Position numbers and translations under genes: made by a program. From Rhodococcus sp. B50 (lineage in GTDB: Bacteria; Actinomycetota; Actinomycetes; Mycobacteriales; Mycobacteriaceae), in NCBI RefSeq assembly GCF_013602415.1, contig NZ_WPAG02000002.1, positions 4,157,480 through 4,221,479 of the forward strand: DNA of 64,000 nucleotides. Reading direction: 5' to 3'. The stretch's first letter is position 1; the number at the start of each line of letters is the position of its first letter. The notes under the pieces are model-generated. The model was given only the letters and a program-made list of their open reading frames with translations, was not told the DNA's origin and searched no databases. This document shows positions 30,749 through 43,990 of this stretch, one piece after another.

Positions 30749-31641
30749 CCACGACCTTTCGCATCCCGGTGGCGGAACCCGTTGCGGTGGGGCCGATGCT
30801 GTCGTCGCTGCGAAGTCACACCGTCCCCGGCTATGAACACCACGACACCGCGACCGGCACCCACCGCCGCGCGATCCGCACGAACGGCGGTGCCGCACAC
30901 GTCACCGTCCGCCTCGGAGATTTGGCGACATCCGCGCTCGAGAAGGGCGGGGGTGTGCGGCATCTCGAGATTTTCGTCGAGACGGCAGGTCGCGCGGACG
31001 CCGCCGACGTCGGAGACATGATACGGACGTGGCTCGATCTAGCGGCCGACCCGTGCGTCGTGGATTCGGCGTTCGCGTCCGATCCCGTGCTCGGGCCTCT
31101 CGTGCGAACCCACCCCGGTCTGCGCGTGGTCGGTACCACCGACTGGTTCGCCACCGCCGTGACGACGGTGCTCGGGCAGCAGGTGAGTGTCGCTGCGGCA
31201 TGCACATTCGCAGGGCGTCTCGTCGCGGCATTCGGCGACGACGCACCGGGCGGGCTGCGGTGCTTTCCTGCGCCGCACCGACTCGCCGAAGTCGAGGAGA
31301 ACGAACTGCGTGCTGTCATCGGCACGACGCGATCTCGTGCCCGCACCGTCTCCGAGCTGGCCCGAGCCGTGGCCGACGGATTGGGTCCGGAACACCCGTC
31401 GTTTGCGGAGGATCTTCTCGCGCTCCCCGGTATCGGTCCGTGGACCGTCGACTATCTGGCTCTGCGACTCGGCGACCGCGATGCCTATCCGTCCGGCGAT
31501 CTCGTTCTCCGACGCGCTCTGCAGGTGACGAGCGCGCGCGACGCCGCTGAGCGGGCCGAGCAGTGGAGGCCGTGGCGAGCCTACGCCGTCACCCATCTGT
31601 GGACACACGCCACCTACTCGCCGCCGGAATCCTCGGCATAA
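30745..31641 (+). CDS. alkA: DNA-3-methyladenine glycosylase II (AlkA-like)
   Basis: The 298-residue glycosylase has an N-terminal strand-rich domain, a helical core with VLGQQVSVAAA, and the helix-hairpin-helix LPGIGPWTVDYLALRLG (228-243) followed by PSGD with the likely catalytic Asp252. It removes 3-methyladenine and other alkylated bases, complementing the direct-reversal enzymes encoded upstream. It is the last gene of the four-gene operon and its end overlaps the convergent polymerase gene by 28 bases. The Ada-type DNA-binding domain found in some fusions is absent. Confidence 0.9.
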   Translation: MTTTFRIPVAEPVAVGPMLSSLRSHTVPGYEHHDTATGTHRRAIRTNGGAAHVTVRLGDLATSALEKGGGVRHLEIFVETAGRADAADVGDMIRTWLDLAADPCVVDSAFASDPVLGPLVRTHPGLRVVGTTDWFATAVTTVLGQQVSVAAACTFAGRLVAAFGDDAPGGLRCFPAPHRLAEVEENELRAVIGTTRSRARTVSELARAVADGLGPEHPSFAEDLLALPGIGPWTVDYLALRLGDRDAYPSGDLVLRRALQVTSARDAAERAEQWRPWRAYAVTHLWTHATYSPPESSA

Positions 31642-33197
31642 GCGGCGCGCACCGCGGTGTCCATCGGGAAACGAACCTGCGTGTCGCCGAACATCAGTCG
31701 CGTGGCCACCTCGACGGAGGCCGTGATGTGCGACGACGCGAGTTCCGGATTGCCGGTGTGCACCACGACTTCGTCGTGCTGGAAGAACACGAGATCGCCG
31801 GCGGTCGGATCGGGATCGGTGGTCAGTCGCCGACGTAGTTCGGCGAGCACGCACAGCGCCCACTCGGCTGCGGTGGCCTGCACGACGAAGTTCCGTGTGA
31901 AGCGCCCGCGCGCGTGCGCATCGCCGTGCGAATGGAATCCCTCCGGGGCGGGTGGGCACGCCCGCCCCAGCCACGAATGCACCACCTCGCCACGCTCGCC
32001 CGCGCGCGCCGCACGCTCGACGAAGTCGACGGCGGTCGGAAAACTGCGACGCAGCACCGCAAGCAGGGCACGCGCGTCGCCGGACGTGGCTCCGTACAAC
32101 ACGCCGAGCACCGCGACCTTCGCCTTCGCGCGGTCGCCACCGAAGGACGCCGCTGCGACGGGGGCGTACAGATCGTCCGACCCGGCGGCCGCCACCATAC
32201 GCCGGTCACCCGACATTGCCGCCAGGATGCGGGGTTCGAGCTGGCCGGCGTCGGCGACGACGAACGACCGGCCGGGATCGGCGACCACGCTCGACCGCAA
32301 CGCCTTGGGGATCTGCAGAGCGCCACCGCCTCGACTCGCCCACCGACCCGAGACGACGGCGCCCGGAACGTACACCGGGCGGAACCGGTCGTCGCGTACC
32401 CAGGTGTCGAGCCAATGCCAGCCGTTCGTGCTGTACAACTTCGACAGCTCGCGGTGCCGCAGCAGCAGCGGCACCACGGGATGGTCGATCCGCTGCAACA
32501 CGTGCTTGCGGGTCGACTCGACCGTGATGCCCTCGCGACGGAACGCCTCGAGCACCTCGCTGTGCGATGCGGGATTCACGGCGCGGCCGAAGACAGCGCT
32601 GATCTCCTCGACGACTTCGGCGATGCGGCTCGGCAGGTCGTAACCGGTCGGGCGGGGCCCGAGTGTGTCCTCGAGCAAACGACGATGCGCCTGCGCCGAG
32701 AACGGCAACCCGTCGAAACCCATTTCGGCCGCTGCGAGCGTGCCGGCCGATTCGGCGGCGGTGAGCAGTTCCAGGCGGGCATCGCCGGTGATGCGCCGAC
32801 GCTGATGTGCGAATTGTTCGACGACCGCGTCGACGTCGATTGCGGGTGCGGCATCGAAGAGACCGGGCCGCTCGTCGACCGACTCCTCCGCGGCAGGCGG
32901 TGGCAGGCCCTCCCGCACGGCGAGGATGGCGCCGGTGGTGGCGAGGTCGTGGCATCGCTGCACTCGAACGCCCGCGCGGAGGAGCTCGGGATAGACGGTT
33001 GCCGTCGAGGTCCATACCCAGCGCGGTCGCGATTCGGCTTCGATCGTTGCGACTGCAGCTGCACATTCGGGATACTCACGTATCGGTCCGAGTGGCGCAC
33101 CCGATGCGTCGACCTCGACGATGCTTGCACCGCGACGGCCCCGGCCGTCCGCAGGATGAGTAACGACGACCGTGCGCACCCATACAGTGTGCTCCAT
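31614..33197 (-). CDS. PolA-like DNA polymerase with degenerate exonuclease domain
   Basis: I chose the ATG at 33197. The 527-residue protein lacks the 5'-nuclease domain of DNA polymerase I. Polymerase motifs are present: VVADAGQLEPRILAAMSGD (motif A, Asp316), DRAKAKVAVLGVLYG (motif B, near 355-369) and FFQHDEVVVH (motif C). The first 100 residues sit where the 3'-5' exonuclease belongs, but its acidic residues are not recognisable, so proofreading may be lost. It is widely named bifunctional 3'-5' exonuclease/DNA polymerase in actinobacteria. It is convergent with alkA, which hints at a repair role. Confidence 0.85.
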   Translation of the reverse strand: MEHTVWVRTVVVTHPADGRGRRGASIVEVDASGAPLGPIREYPECAAAVATIEAESRPRWVWTSTATVYPELLRAGVRVQRCHDLATTGAILAVREGLPPPAAEESVDERPGLFDAAPAIDVDAVVEQFAHQRRRITGDARLELLTAAESAGTLAAAEMGFDGLPFSAQAHRRLLEDTLGPRPTGYDLPSRIAEVVEEISAVFGRAVNPASHSEVLEAFRREGITVESTRKHVLQRIDHPVVPLLLRHRELSKLYSTNGWHWLDTWVRDDRFRPVYVPGAVVSGRWASRGGGALQIPKALRSSVVADPGRSFVVADAGQLEPRILAAMSGDRRMVAAAGSDDLYAPVAAASFGGDRAKAKVAVLGVLYGATSGDARALLAVLRRSFPTAVDFVERAARAGERGEVVHSWLGRACPPAPEGFHSHGDAHARGRFTRNFVVQATAAEWALCVLAELRRRLTTDPDPTAGDLVFFQHDEVVVHTGNPELASSHITASVEVATRLMFGDTQVRFPMDTAVRAAYAEDSGGE

Positions 33198-33311
33198 CAC
33201 GGCGACAGCTTTCGACGCGCTGTAGCCCCACGATTCACCCTTGAATTCACCCGTACCGAGGGCGATCCCCGAGAGAACCGGCACTACCGTGATAGAGGAG
33301 GGGCTCCGCCG

Positions 33312-34832
33312 CTACCCCCGACGCGCGGCGGGGTCCCCCATTTCGTTCGCGGGCCCGTTGTTGTCGCTCGAACGCTCGCCGCCGGAAGATTCGCCCGGGT
33401 CGTCACGATCGTCGTCCTCACGATCATCGACGGTGTGGTCCGAATGAACCGTATCGCCCACGAGCACCGAATCCTGATCGTGCTGTCGGGACGGCCGCCA
33501 GGGCAGTCTCACCGGTGCGTCCGGTGCCCGATGGAATCCGATGCGGTCGTAGATCCACGTCACGACGGCGCCGACGACCAGTCCGAACACGAGTCCGACG
33601 ATCGTCATGGTCACACCGTGGCCGAGCCCGGCGTCGGCGCGTCCGTCGAAGTAGAGGATGGCGCGCACCGCGAGATAGATCTGGTGCATCGGCTCGAAGG
33701 TCGACAGCCACTCGAACAGTCGTGGCGTGGCCTCGATCGGGATCGTTCCACCGGACGAAGGAAGTCCGAGCACGATGAACACGATCAGGTTCACCAACAG
33801 GCCCGCCGCGCCGAAGATCGACATCACCGCGAGTGACGTGATGCCCACCGCCGAGATCGCGAGGGCCCCGTACTCCCACAACAACAGCGCGCGTGGCGCC
33901 GGCATACCGAGGCCGGTGGCGATCCACACGTACAACGCCGAGACGATCAGCGACATGACCACCGTGATGCCCCACTTGAGTGCCAGCACCTGCAGGCGCG
34001 ACATCCGGGTGGTCTCCCTCGCGATGTAGAGGGGGCCGTATTCAGTGGGTACGAAGCCGAGCTTGGTGTCGACGACCGCGTTGATGATCGTGGCACCGGT
34101 GAAGCCGGCCAGGATCAGCAGCAGGGTGTAGAAGAAGGCGGACAGACCCGCGCCCGTCCCACCCGGCAGCGGCTTGTGCTCGACGGTGAGCGCATCGATC
34201 GGTTGAGCCAGCGTCAGGCTGCCGGCTCCGGAGAGCTGCAGGTCGGGAGCAGTGTCGGCGAGTGTGGCGGTGACGGTCTCGGTCAGCTGTTCACCCACCG
34301 AATCGTTCACCTGGGTCAGTGCGCGGTCGCCGATCGTCGTGACGATGCCCGTCGCGAACGCCCCTGTGCGGGGGTTCGTGTACAGGGTGATGATCGGTTT
34401 CTCGATGTCGCCGGGAACCACCGAGGCCTGCGCGAGGATCGAGATGCGTTTGGTGAAGTCGCTCGGGATGACGATCGCCCCGTACAGGCTGCCGTCGTCG
34501 AGCCCGCGGTTGGCGGCCGAGATCCCCATCCGTTGCAGGTCGATCTCCTCGGGATCGATGCCGTCGAGGATGCCCTCGGTGATCTGGTCGCCGAAGTTCT
34601 GTCGCTCGTCCGATCCGGGCAGCACATCGCCGACGTCCTGATTGACGATGGCCATCGGGAACTGTCTCAGGTTCTCGCTCGGATCGAGGAGTGCGCCGAG
34701 GTAGAAATACGCCAAGGCACTCATCACTGCCGCGACGACAGCGAAGGGCGCGAGCCAGAAGCGTGGACTGCGCAGGGTGCTGTGGTGCGGGTCGATGGAC
34801 GACTGGGTTGAACTCACCTGTCGATTGTGCAC
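33312..34832 (-). CDS. DUF3533/YhgE-Pip-like membrane protein
   Basis: The 506-residue protein has one N-terminal membrane segment (WLAPFAVVAAVMSALAYFYL, about 26-45), a large outside domain of about 180 residues with AIVNQDVGDVL and LYGAIVIPSDFTKRI, then five or six C-terminal segments from about residue 230, and an acidic tail. This is the layout of DUF3533/YhgE-Pip proteins, which resemble ABC-2 permeases without an ATPase gene. Roles reported for the wider group include secretion and envelope functions. The GTG start at 34832 is uncertain; a GTG at 34817 is equally possible. Confidence 0.75.
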   Translation of the reverse strand: MHNRQVSSTQSSIDPHHSTLRSPRFWLAPFAVVAAVMSALAYFYLGALLDPSENLRQFPMAIVNQDVGDVLPGSDERQNFGDQITEGILDGIDPEEIDLQRMGISAANRGLDDGSLYGAIVIPSDFTKRISILAQASVVPGDIEKPIITLYTNPRTGAFATGIVTTIGDRALTQVNDSVGEQLTETVTATLADTAPDLQLSGAGSLTLAQPIDALTVEHKPLPGGTGAGLSAFFYTLLLILAGFTGATIINAVVDTKLGFVPTEYGPLYIARETTRMSRLQVLALKWGITVVMSLIVSALYVWIATGLGMPAPRALLLWEYGALAISAVGITSLAVMSIFGAAGLLVNLIVFIVLGLPSSGGTIPIEATPRLFEWLSTFEPMHQIYLAVRAILYFDGRADAGLGHGVTMTIVGLVFGLVVGAVVTWIYDRIGFHRAPDAPVRLPWRPSRQHDQDSVLVGDTVHSDHTVDDREDDDRDDPGESSGGERSSDNNGPANEMGDPAARRG

Positions 34833-34924: not shown

Positions 34925-35659
34925 TCACCGGAGCAACTCGCCGAGGGTCGACGCTGCAGAGACCACGGCCGCCGCGAGGCGCGCTTCATCCGTGGCATCG
35001 AAGACCGAGACGCCTATCGCCGCCTGGGTGCCCCCGGGACGGCTCGGTACCGCTGCCGAGATTCCGATGGTGGTGGATACGACCTCGCCGGCGGAGACCG
35101 CATAGCCCGTCTGTCGCGCCCGGGTCACTTCCGGGCGCTCGTCGGGACGCGGAGGCATGGATCCGAGGATCGCCAGACCGGCGGAGCCCCGGTCCAGCGG
35201 ATGGACCTGGCCCGGACGGAAGGCGATGTGAACATCGGATCGCCGGGGTTCGATCACCATCATCGCGCGCACCGTGGTGTCGGACTCGCGGACCACGAGG
35301 TGGGCCGTGGCCTCGACGCTGTCGGCGAGTTCCTCGAGGATCGGTCGCGCGAGGGTTCGCAGGTCCTGCTCGACGGATTCGGCGAGTGTCACCAGGCCGG
35401 TGCCCAGTGAGATGCGCTTGTGGTCGTCGCGGCGGCACAGCCGGTGTGCCTCGAGAGTCCGGACGAGTCGGTGGGCGACCGTGCGGTGTACGTCGAGGTT
35501 CTCGGCGATCTCGCTGACCGATAGGCCATGTGGGTTCCGCGCGAGCAGTTCCAGGATTTCGAGACCGTTGTGGAGCGTCTTGGACATGCCCGCGTCCGGC
35601 TCGATCCGCGGCAGATTCAAATCCTCTGTTTGCGCAGGTACATCCCGCATTTGTGTCAT
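34925..35659 (-). CDS. IclR-family regulator of the SnoaL/SDR/flavoprotein operon
   Basis: The 244-residue protein has the IclR winged helix (LEILELLARNPHGLSVSEIAENLDVHRTVAHRLVRTLE split over residues 33-70) and a C-terminal effector domain with ATAHLVVRESDTTVRAMMVIEP and PLDRGSAGLAIL. I chose the ATG at 35659; an ATG at 35650 is also possible, and the longer reading frame to 36205 is antisense to the next gene. It is divergent from a five-gene catabolic operon across a perfect 23-bp palindrome. IclR members in such positions are usually activators or repressors that respond to the pathway substrate. Confidence 0.9.
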   Translation of the reverse strand: MTQMRDVPAQTEDLNLPRIEPDAGMSKTLHNGLEILELLARNPHGLSVSEIAENLDVHRTVAHRLVRTLEAHRLCRRDDHKRISLGTGLVTLAESVEQDLRTLARPILEELADSVEATAHLVVRESDTTVRAMMVIEPRRSDVHIAFRPGQVHPLDRGSAGLAILGSMPPRPDERPEVTRARQTGYAVSAGEVVSTTIGISAAVPSRPGGTQAAIGVSVFDATDEARLAAAVVSAASTLGELLR

Positions 35660-35712
35660 GACCCCCGTTACCTCTCTTGACGTCTGTGAACTGTAACACC
35701 TAGCATTTCCGT

Positions 35713-35735
35713 TAATCGCACATGCTGTGCGATTA
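35713..35735. promoter_or_regulatory. 23-bp palindromic operator in the IclR/SnoaL divergent promoter
   Basis: Exact 10-bp arms TAATCGCACA and TGTGCGATTA flank a 3-base spacer (TGC). It lies 53 bases upstream of the IclR start and 32 bases upstream of the SnoaL-like start. A partial extra half-site (CGCACACAATCAC) follows. The position and symmetry fit an IclR-family operator controlling both directions. Confidence 0.8.
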
Positions 35736-35767
35736 CCGCACACAATCACGGATGGTTTTCGTACGAC

Positions 35768-36196
35768 ATGACACGGACCGAATACGTGGACGCGGCGGTT
35801 CTCGCTCATATCCACCAGCTCTACGGGCGACAGAGCCACCTCATCGACGAGGGCTCTGCGCGCGAGTGGGCCGAAACGTTCACCGCCGACGGCGAGTTCT
35901 GCTCGCCCAGTTACCCCGCCCCCGTGGCAGGTACCGCCGAGCTCGTGGCCTTCGCCGAGCGCTTCCACGTCGGCGCGCAGGCAGCAGGTGAAGTGCACCG
36001 GCACGTCGTCACCAACCTCGCGGCCTACCGCGTCGACGACGACACCCTCCGTGTACGCGCCTACCTGCAGATCACGGCCACCGTTCGTGGGGGCGAATCT
36101 CGGCTCGTCCGGTTCACCACCATCGACGACAGCCTCGTGCGCACCGGCGGTGAATGGCGCATAGCCCGCCGCATCGTCTCCCGCGACGACAGTTGA
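35768..36196 (+). CDS. SnoaL/NTF2-like protein, possible isomerase, hydratase or dehydratase
   Basis: The 142-residue protein has the NTF2-like cone fold pattern: helix IHQLYGRQSHLIDEGSAREWAETFTADGEFCS, central GEVHRHVVTNLAAYRV strand with two His, and a long strand pair VRAYLQITATVRGG with WRIARRIVS at the end. SnoaL_4-type members act as ketosteroid-isomerase-like isomerases, dehydratases or small hydroxylation partners. It is the first gene of an operon of two SDRs, an FAD dehydrogenase and a transporter, so a catalytic role on the pathway intermediate is likely. The exact reaction is unknown. Confidence 0.8.
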   Translation: MTRTEYVDAAVLAHIHQLYGRQSHLIDEGSAREWAETFTADGEFCSPSYPAPVAGTAELVAFAERFHVGAQAAGEVHRHVVTNLAAYRVDDDTLRVRAYLQITATVRGGESRLVRFTTIDDSLVRTGGEWRIARRIVSRDDS

Positions 36197-36244
36197 CCGT
36201 CGCACCTCTTTCCACTTCGTTTCACATTCTCGGAGGAATCACCC

Positions 36245-37865: not shown

Positions 37866-39322
37866 ACGACGACATCATCGACGTCGTGGTGATCGGTGGT
37901 GGCGGTGCCGGTCTCGCGGCCGCAGTGTCTGCTGCCGAATCCGGTGCGAGCGTCCTGCTGTTCGAATCCGAGAGCGAACTGGGCGGGTCGACCCAGCTGT
38001 CCGCGGGATTGTTCACCGCGGCAGGGACGAGTGTGCAGCGCGGCCTCGGCGTCGAGGACTCCGCCGAGAAGTTCTTCCAGCATTACATGGATCTGAACCA
38101 TTGGGTCCTCACACCCGGACTGGTCCGTGCGTTCTGCGAGAACGCGGGCCCGACACTCGAATGGCTGATCGGCCTCGGCGTGGAGATCCCCGCCCGGGAA
38201 TCGTCGAACGCGCACATGCCCGGTCTGTGCCAGGCCGGTGTCGAAGACGTCTGGCGCGGGCACGTGCCGAAGGATCAGGGCTACGGACTCGTGCAGACAC
38301 TCGACCGTGCGCGTCGCGCACAGGGTGTGGAAGCCGTGCTCGGCACCCGGGTCCAGAGGCTGCTCGTCGAGGGCGGACGTGTGGTCGGTGTCGTCGCCGA
38401 CGACATCGAGGTCCGTGCCCATGCCGTCGTGGTTGCGTCCGGTGGCTTCGCGCAGAACCGCGACCTGCTCGAGCAGTACTATCCGTATCCGCTCGGAGCA
38501 GGCGAGTCGCTGTTCGTCGTTGCCGCGCCGGGTAGTCGCGGCGACCACTTCCGCTTCGGCGAGCAGGTCGATTCGGCGATCGCCGGCACGGACTGGGGGC
38601 TGACCATGCCCACCGCCTACTTCCAGCGCTACCACCACTGGCAGGCCGGTTTCCCGCCCAAGTCGAGGGTGTATGTGAACAAGTCCGGCCGACGGTTCAT
38701 GGACGAGGACGCGTCGTATGCGGTCTCCGGCGGTCTCATGGATCGTCAGGACGGGCCTGTATGGGCGATTTTCGACGAGAAGGCACGCACAGGGCTGCCG
38801 TCCGGCTACACCGACTGGGATGCCGACCGCATCACCGAGGAAGCCGATGCCGGTCGTACCCTGCGCGCCGACAGCCTCGCCGAACTCGCCGATCTCATCG
38901 GCGTACCGGTCGATGCTCTGATCGCCACGATCGATCGCTGGAACACCCAGCTGCCCCACGGGACCGATCCTGACTTCCTGCGCCATCGCACCCTCGTCAA
39001 CAAGGGATCCGCCTCGAACCCCGACCCCATCGCGCAAGGACCGTTCTACGCGGCACGTATGCTGCCCGCCGAACTGGTCTGCACCCACGCCGGACTCGAG
39101 ATCAACCCGAACGCGGAAGTCCTCGACACCCTCGGGAACGTCGTACCCGGGCTGTATGCGGCCGGAGAAGCGGGCGCCGGCATCCTCGGTCTCCGCTATG
39201 TGGGCGGCGGCAATGCCGTCGCCAACGCGTTGACCATGGGCCGCATCGCCGGCCTCAATGCGGCACGGTCGGCTGAATCCGGCGTCGCTCCACGCACCGC
39301 ACTCGGTGCTGCCGGCGTGTGA
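37862..39322 (+). CDS. FAD-dependent dehydrogenase, 3-ketosteroid dehydrogenase/fumarate reductase-like
   Basis: The 486-residue flavoprotein starts with the FAD loop [21 protein letters not shown] and an [11 protein letters not shown] stretch. It has a middle capping domain with [16 protein letters not shown], and ends with [29 protein letters not shown], the typical C-terminal FAD segment of the fumarate reductase/KstD superfamily. Members dehydrogenate a carbon-carbon bond next to a ketone or acid. Length fits this group, but it is shorter than most 3-ketosteroid 1-dehydrogenases, so the substrate may be a smaller ring or acid. It overlaps the upstream SDR by ATGA. Confidence 0.88.
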
Positions 39323-39357
39323 CGCCACCTCCCCTTACATTCGAAAAGGACACGAAC

Positions 39358-40689
39358 ATGCTCGGATCGGACGCGGTATCCCCCGCAGTGAGTCCACCCC
39401 AGGCCGAGGCTTCACAGCCGAAGCAGTCGACGCTCAAGGTCATTCGTGCTGCTGTCGTGGGCACCATCGTCGAGTACTACGACTTCGGTATCTACGGCTA
39501 CATGGCGACGATGGTCGCCACCCTGTTCTTCGTCTCCGAAGATGAGACAGCTGCCCTGTTAGGTACATTCGCGGCGTTCGCAGTAGCGTTCTTCCTTCGA
39601 GTGCCCGGTGGCATCTTCTTCGGGCACATCGGCGACAAGTACGGCCGGAAGAACGCGCTCTCGTGGACGATTCTGCTCATGGTCGTCGCGACTGCGGCCA
39701 TGGGCCTGATGCCCACCTATGCGACCTTGGGGGTGTGGGCGACGGTCATGCTCGTGCTCGCACGCTGCCTCCAGGGCTTCGCGGCAGGCGGGGAACTCAG
39801 CGGAGCGAACGCGTTCGTCTCGGAATCCGCACCCGCCCGCTGGCGTGCCACGCAGACGTCGATGGTCAACTCGGGCACCTACCTCGGCTCACTCGTCGCG
39901 TCTCTCGTCGCACTCGGCATCACCACGGTCTTCACCGAGGAACAGATCCTCGAATGGGCTTGGCGTATCCCGTTCCTGCTCAGCGTCGTCATCGGTGTCG
40001 TCGGCATCTGGATCCGTAACCACCTCGAGGACACCCCGCAGTTCGAGGAACTCGAGGAAAAGGGTGAGACGAAGAAACTGCCCATCGTCGAGTTGCTGAG
40101 GACGTCAGGTGGAAGCGTCGTCAAGATCATCCTGCTCGGTGCGCTCATCATCGGTGGCTACTACATCGCATCGGTGTATGCCGCGACCTACCTGCAGACC
40201 ACAGGCGGTCTGTCGTCGTCCGTCGCGTTCCTGTCGACATGCCTTGCGCTCATCCTGGGTGTGATCACGTTGCCGATCGCGGGTTATCTCGCCGACAAGT
40301 ACGGACGCAAGCCGGTGTTGTTCGCCGGTAGTGCGGCGTCGGCGATCGTCGGTGTCCCGATGTTCATGTTGATGTCCGGTGGCACCGTGTGGCAGGCCAT
40401 CGTCGGCCAGTCCGTGCTGTTCATCTGCGTGTCGGTGGTCAACGGCGCCTCCTTCGTGACGTACGTCGAGATGCTCAAGGCCTCGGTGCGGTACAGCGGT
40501 ATCGCCCTCGGAAACAACGTGACGAACATGTGCCTCGGCGGAACCGCACCGTTCATCGCGACGTGGCTGATCGACGTGACCGGGAACTCGTTGGCACCGG
40601 CAGGGTACTTCGTGTTCTGCGCGCTGCTCACCCTGGGTGCGGTCTTCTTCATCGAAGAGACGAAGGGCATCGAACTCCGCACCGACTAG
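39358..40689 (+). CDS. MFS transporter, metabolite:H+ symporter type
   Basis: The 443-residue protein has 12 predicted membrane segments and the MHS-family signatures VVGTIVEYYDFGIYGYMA at the first helix, GHIGDKYGRKNAL in the first cytoplasmic loop, and GYLADKYGRKPVL in the loop of the second half. I chose the ATG at 39358 with AAAAGGA upstream; a GTG at 39319 overlaps the flavoprotein stop. MHS transporters carry organic acids such as shikimate, dicarboxylates or aromatic acids. As the last gene of the operon it probably imports the pathway substrate, suggesting that this is an acid. A strong terminator follows. Confidence 0.9.
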   Translation: MLGSDAVSPAVSPPQAEASQPKQSTLKVIRAAVVGTIVEYYDFGIYGYMATMVATLFFVSEDETAALLGTFAAFAVAFFLRVPGGIFFGHIGDKYGRKNALSWTILLMVVATAAMGLMPTYATLGVWATVMLVLARCLQGFAAGGELSGANAFVSESAPARWRATQTSMVNSGTYLGSLVASLVALGITTVFTEEQILEWAWRIPFLLSVVIGVVGIWIRNHLEDTPQFEELEEKGETKKLPIVELLRTSGGSVVKIILLGALIIGGYYIASVYAATYLQTTGGLSSSVAFLSTCLALILGVITLPIAGYLADKYGRKPVLFAGSAASAIVGVPMFMLMSGGTVWQAIVGQSVLFICVSVVNGASFVTYVEMLKASVRYSGIALGNNVTNMCLGGTAPFIATWLIDVTGNSLAPAGYFVFCALLTLGAVFFIEETKGIELRTD

Positions 40690-41266: not shown

Positions 41267-41794
41267 ATGTCCGGACCCCGCGACCTCGACTACTGGTCCT
41301 TCGTCGAACTCGCGCAGGAGCGTCTGAACAGCAAGTTCGGTGAACATCACCGCAGCGCGACGGAAGTTCTGCTCACACTCAACCGGGCTTCGGACATCGT
41401 CACCTACGATCTCGAGTCCGCAGTCCACCGCCCGCGGGGCAGGTCGTGGTCGGCCTACCGGCTCATGTTCGTCATCTGGCTCGCGGGTCCGATCGAACCG
41501 AATGTCGCCGCGCGGCTCACCGGGATGAGTCGCGCCGCTGTGTCGAACCTTGCGAAACCCCTGGTCGAGGCGGGGATTCTCGAAAAGACTCCGGTCAGCC
41601 ACGACGCGCGTTCGGTGCAGCTGTCGCTCACCGAAGCGGGGGAGAAGGAGATTCGGGACAGCTTCCGCGCCCAGAACGAGCGCGAGGAGGCCTGGGTGGA
41701 GGTGCTGACCCCCACCGAGCAGCAGATTCTCGTGATGCTCCTGAACAAACTGATCACCAACCGCAGTCAGTTCGACGTGCGCGGACGCAACTGA
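41267..41794 (+). CDS. MarR-family regulator of the homogentisate operon
   Basis: The 175-residue protein has the MarR winged helix: LMFVIWLAGPIEPNVAARLTGMSRAAVSNLAKPLVEAGIL (split over residues 65-105) with the wing VSHDARSVQLSLTEAG at 109-124. Helices for dimerisation lie at both ends. It is 115 bases upstream of hmgA on the same strand. An AT-rich motif is shared between its own promoter and that of hmgA. It probably senses homogentisate or a related aromatic acid. Assignment to an HmgR-like role is inference from position. Confidence 0.88.
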   Translation: MSGPRDLDYWSFVELAQERLNSKFGEHHRSATEVLLTLNRASDIVTYDLESAVHRPRGRSWSAYRLMFVIWLAGPIEPNVAARLTGMSRAAVSNLAKPLVEAGILEKTPVSHDARSVQLSLTEAGEKEIRDSFRAQNEREEAWVEVLTPTEQQILVMLLNKLITNRSQFDVRGRN

Positions 41795-41909: not shown

Positions 41910-43112
41910 ATGGCGTTCTACCGACAGCTTGGCGTCATCCCGCCGAAGCGTCACACCCAGCACCGTGACGAGAACGGCAACCTGTACTACGAAGAGCTCA
42001 TGGGCGAGGAGGGCTTCTCGTCCGACTCGGCGCTGCTCTACCACCGGTACATCCCGTCGGCGATCGTCGACGCCACCGAGTGGAAGCTGTCCGATCAGAC
42101 CACCACGCCGAACCATCCGCTCAAGCCGCGGCACCTGAAGCTGCACGATCTGTTCCCCGAGACGATCTGGGCCGAGACGGATGTCGTGACCGGGCGTCGC
42201 CTGGTCCTGGGCAACGCCGACGTCCGCATCTCGTACGTCGTGTCGTCCAAGCCCTCGCCGCTGTACCGCAACGTCGTCGGCGACGAGATGGTCTACGTCG
42301 AGTCCGGTGAGGCCACCGTCGAAACGGTCTTCGGTCCGCTCGAGGCGAAGGCCGGCGACTACGTCCTGCTGCCGATGGCCACCACTCACCGCTGGGTGCC
42401 CAAGGGCGACGCACCGCTGCGCGCCTACACCATCGAGGCCAACAGCCACATCGTCCCGCCGAAGCGCTACCTGTCGAAGTTCGGGCAGTTCCTCGAGCAC
42501 GCGCCGTTCTGCGAGCGCGACCTGCACGGTCCGACCGAGCTGATGCAGGTCGAAGAGGAGAACGTCGAGGTGTTGGTCAAGCACCGCACCTCGCACGGCA
42601 TCGTCGGCACCCGATACCTGATGCCGCACCACCCCTTCGACGTGGTGGGCTGGGACGGTTGCCTGTACCCGTACACCTTCTCGATCCACGACTACGAGCC
42701 CATCACCGGCCGCGTCCACCAGCCGCCGCCGGCGCACCAGGCGTTCGAGGGCACCAACTTCGTCATCTGCAACTTCGTGCCTCGCAAGGTGGATTACCAC
42801 CCGCTGGCCGTGCCGGTGCCGTACTACCACTCGAATGTCGACTCCGACGAGGTCATGTTCTACTGCGGTGGCGACTACGAGGCCCGCAAGGGTTCCGGCA
42901 TCGCTCAGGGTTCGATCTCGGTGCATCCCGGTGGCCACGCGCACGGCCCGCAGCCGGGTGCCTACGAGCGCAGCATCGGTGTGGAGTTCTTCGACGAGCT
43001 TGCCGTCATGGTCGACACCTTCCGTCCGCTCGAACTGGGTGAGGGCGCGCTCGCGTGCGAGGACGCCGCCTATGCCGGCAGCTGGAACCGCAACGCAGGA
43101 GCGAACAAATGA
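41910..43112 (+). CDS. hmgA: Homogentisate 1,2-dioxygenase
   Basis: The 400-residue cupin-type Fe(II) enzyme opens the ring of homogentisate to 4-maleylacetoacetate. Iron-site residues by comparison with the human enzyme fit His307 (PYYHSNVDSDE), Glu314 or Asp313, and His345 (GGHAHGPQPG). The N-terminal MAFYRQLGVIPPKRHTQHR and the VGDEMVYVESGEA strand are typical. GCGAGGAG precedes the ATG. Its stop overlaps the next gene by ATGA. It is the entry enzyme of a three-gene operon ending in fumarylacetoacetase. The identification is secure. Confidence 0.95.
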   Translation: MAFYRQLGVIPPKRHTQHRDENGNLYYEELMGEEGFSSDSALLYHRYIPSAIVDATEWKLSDQTTTPNHPLKPRHLKLHDLFPETIWAETDVVTGRRLVLGNADVRISYVVSSKPSPLYRNVVGDEMVYVESGEATVETVFGPLEAKAGDYVLLPMATTHRWVPKGDAPLRAYTIEANSHIVPPKRYLSKFGQFLEHAPFCERDLHGPTELMQVEEENVEVLVKHRTSHGIVGTRYLMPHHPFDVVGWDGCLYPYTFSIHDYEPITGRVHQPPPAHQAFEGTNFVICNFVPRKVDYHPLAVPVPYYHSNVDSDEVMFYCGGDYEARKGSGIAQGSISVHPGGHAHGPQPGAYERSIGVEFFDELAVMVDTFRPLELGEGALACEDAAYAGSWNRNAGANK

Positions 43113-43990
43113 GCTTCGGCCCTCTGTTGACCGGTTTGTGCGACGACGCAGCACTGTTCCCTCCCGGCAACGCCCCGCTGCCCGCTGCCGTCCCCGCCCA
43201 CGCCGGCCACCGCACGGCGACGCACGCGCCGCTCGTCGGAGCATTCGTCTTCCCGGCGGGGCGTCTCGGTGAACTCCGGGAATACCTCGCTCAACACCCG
43301 TATCCCGGTGAACTGGCGCTGAGCCTGACTGCACCGACCGGCACCGACGCCGTCGGCCCCGCGCTCGAGCAGGTCGCTGCGATGGACTCGGTGTCCGTGG
43401 TGGCACTTGAGATCGCGGTTCCCGCAGAGCAATCCGTCGACGAGTTGTTCGCGGCGCTCGACGAGATCAGTACGAGCCGATCGAATATCGATGTGTTCGT
43501 GGAGGTCCCACGCGACGAGCGTCGCGCCGAGATCCTCGCCCGCCTCATCGGAACACCGTACGCCGCCAAGTTCCGCACCGGCGGGATCGTGGCGGAGGCC
43601 TATCCGGACGAAGCCGAACTCGCTGCGGCGGTGTCGACGGTCGTCACCACGGGGGTTCCGTTCAAGGCGACCGCCGGTCTGCACCACGCGGTGCGTAACA
43701 CCGATCCGAAGACGGGCTTCGAACAGCACGGGTTCGTGAACCTGCTGGCCGCGGTGGACGCGGTGCTCTCCGGAGCGGACATCGACGAGGTCGCTTCCGT
43801 GCTGGCCGAACGTGACGGGGCAGTGCTCTCCGCACGCCTCGGCGCACTCTCCGACGACCGGGCCGCAGAGGTCCGGCGCCGATTCCTGTCGTACGGCACC
43901 TGCAGCATCGCCGAACCGCTCGAGGATCTGCTCGACCTCGGCCTGGTGCCCTCGACCGTTTCCCCGATCACCGAAGGAACGAACGCATGA
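43109..43990 (+). CDS. Unknown protein encoded between hmgA and fahA
   Basis: I do not recognise a characterised family. The 293-residue soluble protein has repeated strand-helix units that look barrel-like. Conserved-looking segments are LCDDAALFPPGNAPL (10-24), VFVEVPRDE (129-137), AAKFRTGGI (152-160), PFKATAGLHHAVR (184-196) and FLSYGTCSIAEPL (259-271). Lys186 with His192/His193 would suit an active site. Overlap by ATGA at both ends shows it is made with HmgA and FahA. The step between those enzymes is maleylacetoacetate isomerisation, and no glutathione-transferase-type isomerase is present. That role is a hypothesis only. Confidence 0.8.
   Translation: MSFGPLLTGLCDDAALFPPGNAPLPAAVPAHAGHRTATHAPLVGAFVFPAGRLGELREYLAQHPYPGELALSLTAPTGTDAVGPALEQVAAMDSVSVVALEIAVPAEQSVDELFAALDEISTSRSNIDVFVEVPRDERRAEILARLIGTPYAAKFRTGGIVAEAYPDEAELAAAVSTVVTTGVPFKATAGLHHAVRNTDPKTGFEQHGFVNLLAAVDAVLSGADIDEVASVLAERDGAVLSARLGALSDDRAAEVRRRFLSYGTCSIAEPLEDLLDLGLVPSTVSPITEGTNA

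Follow-up and report, generated by a model that had tools for sequence, protein, structure and literature searches.

The breakdown of homogentisate is a textbook pathway. In the window, by which we mean the whole stretch of 64,000 nucleotides of Rhodococcus sp. B50 DNA that was analysed, the genes for homogentisate 1,2-dioxygenase and fumarylacetoacetase enclose a third gene, called X here. The locus comprises the following features:

39319..40689, + strand: MFS metabolite/H+ symporter, of a kind that adjoins hmgA in X-carrying Nocardia loci
41267..41794, + strand: MarR-type regulator upstream of hmgA, accompanying the cluster in most Rhodococcus-type loci
41910..43112, + strand: hmgA, homogentisate 1,2-dioxygenase (Pfam HgmA_N and HgmA_C)
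43109..43990, + strand: gene X, which encodes 293 aa and is a candidate maleylacetoacetate isomerase of non-GST type; predicted TIM barrel with invariant E101, E132, K154, K186, H192 and C265
43987..45171, + strand: fahA, fumarylacetoacetase (Pfam FAA_hydrolase; TIGR01266 at 452 bits, cut-off 375)

X is joined to both neighbours by four-nucleotide ATGA overlaps. At the hmgA/X junction (...aacaaATGAgc) the hmgA TGA occupies 43110-43112 and the X ATG begins at 43109; at the X/fahA junction (...acgcATGAcc) the X TGA occupies 43988-43990 and the fahA ATG begins at 43987. An earlier note, made from these letters alone, had described an hmgA-X-fahA operon overlapping on both sides of X, and the two starts confirm it at the sequence level. 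An ATG equivalent to 43109 is used by the nearest relatives (L001 and L009), and the longer alternative in the list of reading frames, a GTG at 43055, falls within hmgA. The operon yielded no promoter or terminator motifs, and the cluster contains neither a GST nor a DinB gene, just as the note had said of glutathione-transferase and DinB-type isomerases. Two further reading frames of the window, both on the minus strand, drew attention in passing: 33312-34832 encodes a YhgE/Pip-like protein (DUF3533, ABC2 membrane) and neighbours a PRK14975-type exonuclease/polymerase gene (31614-33284), while the 426-residue frame at 34925-36205 has an IclR-type HTH domain in its second half (from about residue 201) and no family match in its first 200 residues.

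X had been presented as an unknown protein, and family searches agree: X and its relatives alike match nothing in NCBIfam and nothing above cut-off in Pfam, and the relatives are labelled 'hypothetical protein' wherever an annotated gene underlies the match. The NCBIfam model of GST zeta MaiA (TIGR01262) matches neither X nor 49 relatives, and neither Pfam nor NCBIfam detects a DinB or MDMPI domain (TIGR03083 type) in X or its relatives. X itself gives no sequence match to DERA/DeoC (TIGR00126; Pfam and NCBIfam) or to the enoyl-CoA hydratase (crotonase) family (Pfam). A sequence search of the PDB returned no relative, the best profile matches, 8cyk (E 0.39) and 3tqv (E 0.41), being noise. Searches of an open-access library turned up no paper on the family.

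The genomic context of X is strongly conserved. In a scan of bacterial genomes, X adjoins fahA and hmgA in 74 of 79 homologous loci. A sample of 201 genomes from the window's family contains 69 X genes, 66 of them less than 300 bp away from hmgA. The remaining three X genes belong to genomes without hmgA (E <= 1e-100) and without fahA (E <= 1e-10). The same family-level sample contains hmgA in 84 genomes, X in 68 and both in 65 (Fisher p = 2e-31, with each genome taken as an independent case); taken with the distances, this places the linkage of X to hmgA far beyond chance. X is present in 11 genomes of an even, phylum-wide sample of 226 Actinomycetota, each time beside fahA. The X-fahA pair also travels on plasmids of Streptomyces, Pseudonocardia, Rhodococcus and Tsukamurella, and it is found outside Actinomycetota in Priestia (Bacillota) and Kovacikia (Cyanobacteriota). 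Gene orders vary: hppD-X-fahA-aminotransferase-hmgA-permease on the Priestia plasmids, hppD-hmgA-X-fahA in Tsukamurella, and in Kovacikia, whose unannotated record we translated, hppD, hmgA and an X-fahA pair with a four-nucleotide overlap. All three clusters contain the enzymes of the ring-cleavage pathway apart from an isomerase. The earlier note had framed the missing isomerase as an actinobacterial matter, with mycothiol used for glutathione; this framing proves too narrow, because X occurs in Bacillota and in one cyanobacterium as well. Cyanobacteria normally contain glutathione.

Clusters without X are also found. X is missing in 19 of the 84 hmgA genomes of the family-level sample, and fahA is still in the cluster in 16 of these 19, mostly directly beside hmgA. 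An hmgA gene followed by fahA without X was seen in Nocardia and others (L131, L172, L173, L175-L182, L184-L186, L188-L190). No common substitute gene was found near the X-less clusters, the shared genes being ordinary neighbours of Nocardia loci. The X-less genome G271 is a sister of the X-bearing R. coprophilus, and on a FahA tree (fasttree, with long branches) the X-presence label changes 13 times, a pattern that suggests repeated losses of X. A comparison of FahA proteins from X-bearing and X-less clusters revealed no position separating the two groups that might mark cis-hydrolysis. Since these 19 hmgA genomes do without X, the isomerisation step can apparently proceed in its absence, whether chemically, through an enzyme encoded elsewhere or through the action of FahA.

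An AlphaFold model of X, computed from a 50-sequence alignment, reached a mean pLDDT of 94.9 and has eight strands in barrel order. The predicted TIM barrel is thus a confident one; barrel-like strands had been noticed at first sight. VIA-align ranks homocitrate synthase first (Z 14.2), with a long run of deoxyribose-phosphate aldolases (DERA) at Z 13-14 and HMG-CoA lyase below both; a family missing from the VIA list was not taken to have a different fold. Foldseek returned no match under E 0.001. In a TIM barrel the active site is formed at the C-terminal strand ends, and 20 of the 27 near-invariant residues of X lie at these ends (p=2e-7), with none at the N-terminal ends.

In the model, K154 lies on strand 6 (E152-156) and K186 on strand 7 (E185-188), the lysine arrangement of a class I aldolase-like (beta/alpha)8 barrel; DERA has its Schiff-base lysine and its helper lysine on these strands. 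Together with H192, C265, E101 and E132, the two lysines form an invariant cluster on the catalytic face. Conservation was scored on 113 sequences, a few of which duplicate another entry: K186, E101, E132, D12 and R156 never vary, variation at K154, H192 and C265 is confined to genome G055, whose copy lacks all three, and position 193 is H in 101 sequences, R in 8 and another residue in 4. The earlier note had singled out a PFKATAGLHH motif with Lys186, His192 and His193. The first two residues are conserved and H193 is not, while K154 and C265 had been overlooked; the invariant or nearly invariant set is wider, taking in K154, C265, E101, E132, D12 and R156 besides K186 and H192. A check for the metal site of DRE-TIM enzymes (HxH after strand 7, Asp on strand 1) found H192 and D12 conserved, in a sequence that reads GLHH with the non-conserved H193. 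We make no claim of homology to DERA, because HHalign did no better for X against DeoC than for shuffled decoys (X scored 17.7, the decoys averaged 13.5, and 6 of 60 decoys scored higher than X). The best X-DeoC profile alignment, which is not significant, pairs K154 and K186 with the two lysines of DERA.

Some copies of X have decayed. Three relics in one genus (L191, L192 and L193, from genomes G332, G387 and G416) stand in genomes with neither hmgA nor fahA. Their identity to functional copies remains 65-81%, and they have lost C265 (C265G) and F17/P18 in all three cases, K154 in two (K154T/Q) and H192 in two (H192D). Such decay, as read from the sequences, is the outcome expected if the lost residues serve the pathway. 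In G055 (L142 / L090) a copy with K154A, H192D and C265R lies between hmgA and fahA, apparently an inactive enzyme that the operon has retained. Three Streptomycetaceae loci (L059, L070 and L071) have a solitary X with intact K154, H192 and C265, an unlinked fahA and no hmgA match, and the Streptomyces plasmids NBC_01420 and NBC_00525 carry X-fahA with no hmgA within 4-5 kb on each side; the role of X alongside FahA may be a broader one. A Na+/H+ antiporter-like gene precedes X in L059 and L071.

Searches for other isomerases gave a mixed answer to the possibility, raised in the earlier note, that the activity is encoded elsewhere in the genome. GST-type MaiA (TIGR01262) is absent at E<=0.01 from the window's genome, and above cut-off it is found in 0 of the 226 Actinomycetota genomes and in 0 of 38 hmgA relatives, X-bearing and X-less. 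Ten TIGR03083 (DinB/mycothiol) proteins are present in the window's genome, none of them in the hmgA-X-fahA cluster, so an unlinked mycothiol-type isomerase could act from elsewhere. The gap has been noticed in other species: papers on B. anthracis (PMC4457819) and B. thuringiensis (PMC6193087) report that no gene for a maleylacetoacetate isomerase can be recognized there. The operons in both papers are three-gene hppD-fahA-hmgA clusters, and X would therefore not close these cases. The R. ruber (PMC6498646) and R. opacus (PMC4591350) papers name hmgA and fahA in their cluster descriptions, where X goes unmentioned.

In our judgement X is probably a maleylacetoacetate cis-trans isomerase that acts between HmgA and FahA and belongs to an unnamed family with no relationship to the GST zeta/MaiA enzymes, which depend on glutathione. 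The non-GST isomerase first suggested for this locus is the best-supported reading because the context is conserved in three phyla, MaiA is lacking and the active site decays where the pathway is gone; on the other side weigh the 19 hmgA genomes without X, the 13 label changes on the FahA tree, the Streptomycetaceae that retain X and fahA but not hmgA, the altered G055 copy, the purely structural link to DERA and the ten TIGR03083 proteins. We infer the reaction and its chemistry from the operon position, the fahA linkage, the TIM-barrel model, the invariant face and the residue decay. K154 of strand 6, flanked by the strand-7 lysine K186 as in class I aldolases, would react with the ketone that adjoins the cis double bond to give an iminium, or would activate this ketone in another way. 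C265, at the end of strand 8 and aided by H192, would then add to the double bond; the C2-C3 bond would rotate, the thiol would leave, and trans-fumarylacetoacetate would pass on to FahA, with the cysteine of C265 taking the place of glutathione or mycothiol. A metal-assisted variant through H192, H207 and D12 is also possible. More speculatively, X might be the founder of a new class of thiol-cofactor-free cis-trans isomerases, built on an aldolase-type TIM barrel with a lysine iminium and a built-in cysteine for glutathione, that fills the tyrosine gap in Actinomycetota, some Bacillota and some Cyanobacteriota; we hold this broader proposal only tentatively.

An alternative that we regard as rather unlikely makes X a helper enzyme that assists FahA by processing a side product or tautomer (for example a wrong enol, a reduced succinyl analogue or a thiol adduct), isomerisation being spontaneous or due to mycothiol or an unlinked DinB-type enzyme. 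It would suit the tracking of fahA by X even without hmgA, in the Streptomycetaceae and on the two Streptomyces plasmids, the loss of X from about a fifth of hmgA genomes, and the ten TIGR03083 proteins. A non-enzymatic bypass is also plausible because human MaiA (GSTZ1) deficiency is reported to bring no more than a mild rise in succinylacetone (PMC12470001 and PMC10970868). However, the Priestia, Kovacikia and Tsukamurella clusters keep X without any other isomerase, and the linked decay of invariant residues suits an enzyme of the main path at least equally well.

The two readings that follow both appear improbable to us. According to one, FahA hydrolyses maleylacetoacetate directly and X is a non-catalytic modulator or scaffold of HmgA or FahA, which would agree with the hmgA-fahA clusters that do without X and with the maleylacetoacetate hydrolase reported for some Bacillus, as cited in PMC4457819. 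The predicted barrel of X nevertheless has an enzyme-like invariant active site, and no FahA position divides X-bearing from X-less proteins. According to the other, X is an aldolase, lyase or hydrolase, DERA-like or HMG-lyase-like, that cleaves maleylacetoacetate or a related ketone in parallel to FahA. Such a role would fit the structural neighbours of X, with DERA and homocitrate synthase closest and HMG-CoA lyase lower in the ranking, and the placing of K154 and K186 on strands 6 and 7, which class I aldolases share, but X nearly always lies beside fahA, whose product already cleaves, and it matches no aldolase family of Pfam or NCBIfam. It is highly improbable that the isomerase is the downstream enoyl-CoA hydratase-like gene of R. 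opacus R7, named 'mai' in the cluster description of PMC4591350, and that X is unrelated to the step: an ech gene is also listed for the R. ruber cluster in PMC6498646, but a match to the R7 protein occurs in just 13 of 108 loci and nowhere in window positions 30001-60000.

As a probable isomerase, X offers Gram-positive bacteria a concrete and testable candidate for a step without an identified gene, and gives a likely function to a 'hypothetical protein' family absent from Pfam and NCBIfam. If the assignment is true, a cofactor-dependent enzyme has been replaced by an unrelated barrel. The existence of X-bearing and X-less sister species in one genus makes the question directly testable.

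Comparison with known systems sets X apart from each of them. The R. opacus R7 'mai' enoyl-CoA hydratase, annotated in the same gene cluster (PMC4591350), belongs to the crotonase family and occurs in a minority of clusters, the window's not among them. In actinobacteria a mycothiol-dependent maleylpyruvate isomerase of the DinB type converts a comparable product of ring cleavage from cis to trans without glutathione. The DinB-type enzyme (TIGR03083/MDMPI) is a helical bundle with a metal site, whereas X has no DinB domain; gentisate operons are treated in PMC6498646. The DRE-TIM metallolyases homocitrate synthase and HMG-CoA lyase share the TIM barrel with X (Z 11.7-14.2), and X also carries D12 close to strand 1, with H192 following strand 7 and C265 following strand 8; it differs in lacking a family match and in its conserved lysines, which are not expected there. 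DERA/DeoC has the same barrel class (VIA-align Z 13-14) and lysines on strands 6 and 7, a link of structure alone, while identity is about 8-17%, no family match exists, the context is different and the window's genome has a separate deoC. GST zeta/MaiA (TIGR01262) would share with X both the proposed reaction and the pathway position between HmgA and FahA. However, its fold combines a thioredoxin domain with a helical GST domain, whereas X, with no sequence match to it and no glutathione site, is a predicted TIM barrel in which a cysteine of the protein itself would serve in place of the thiol cofactor.
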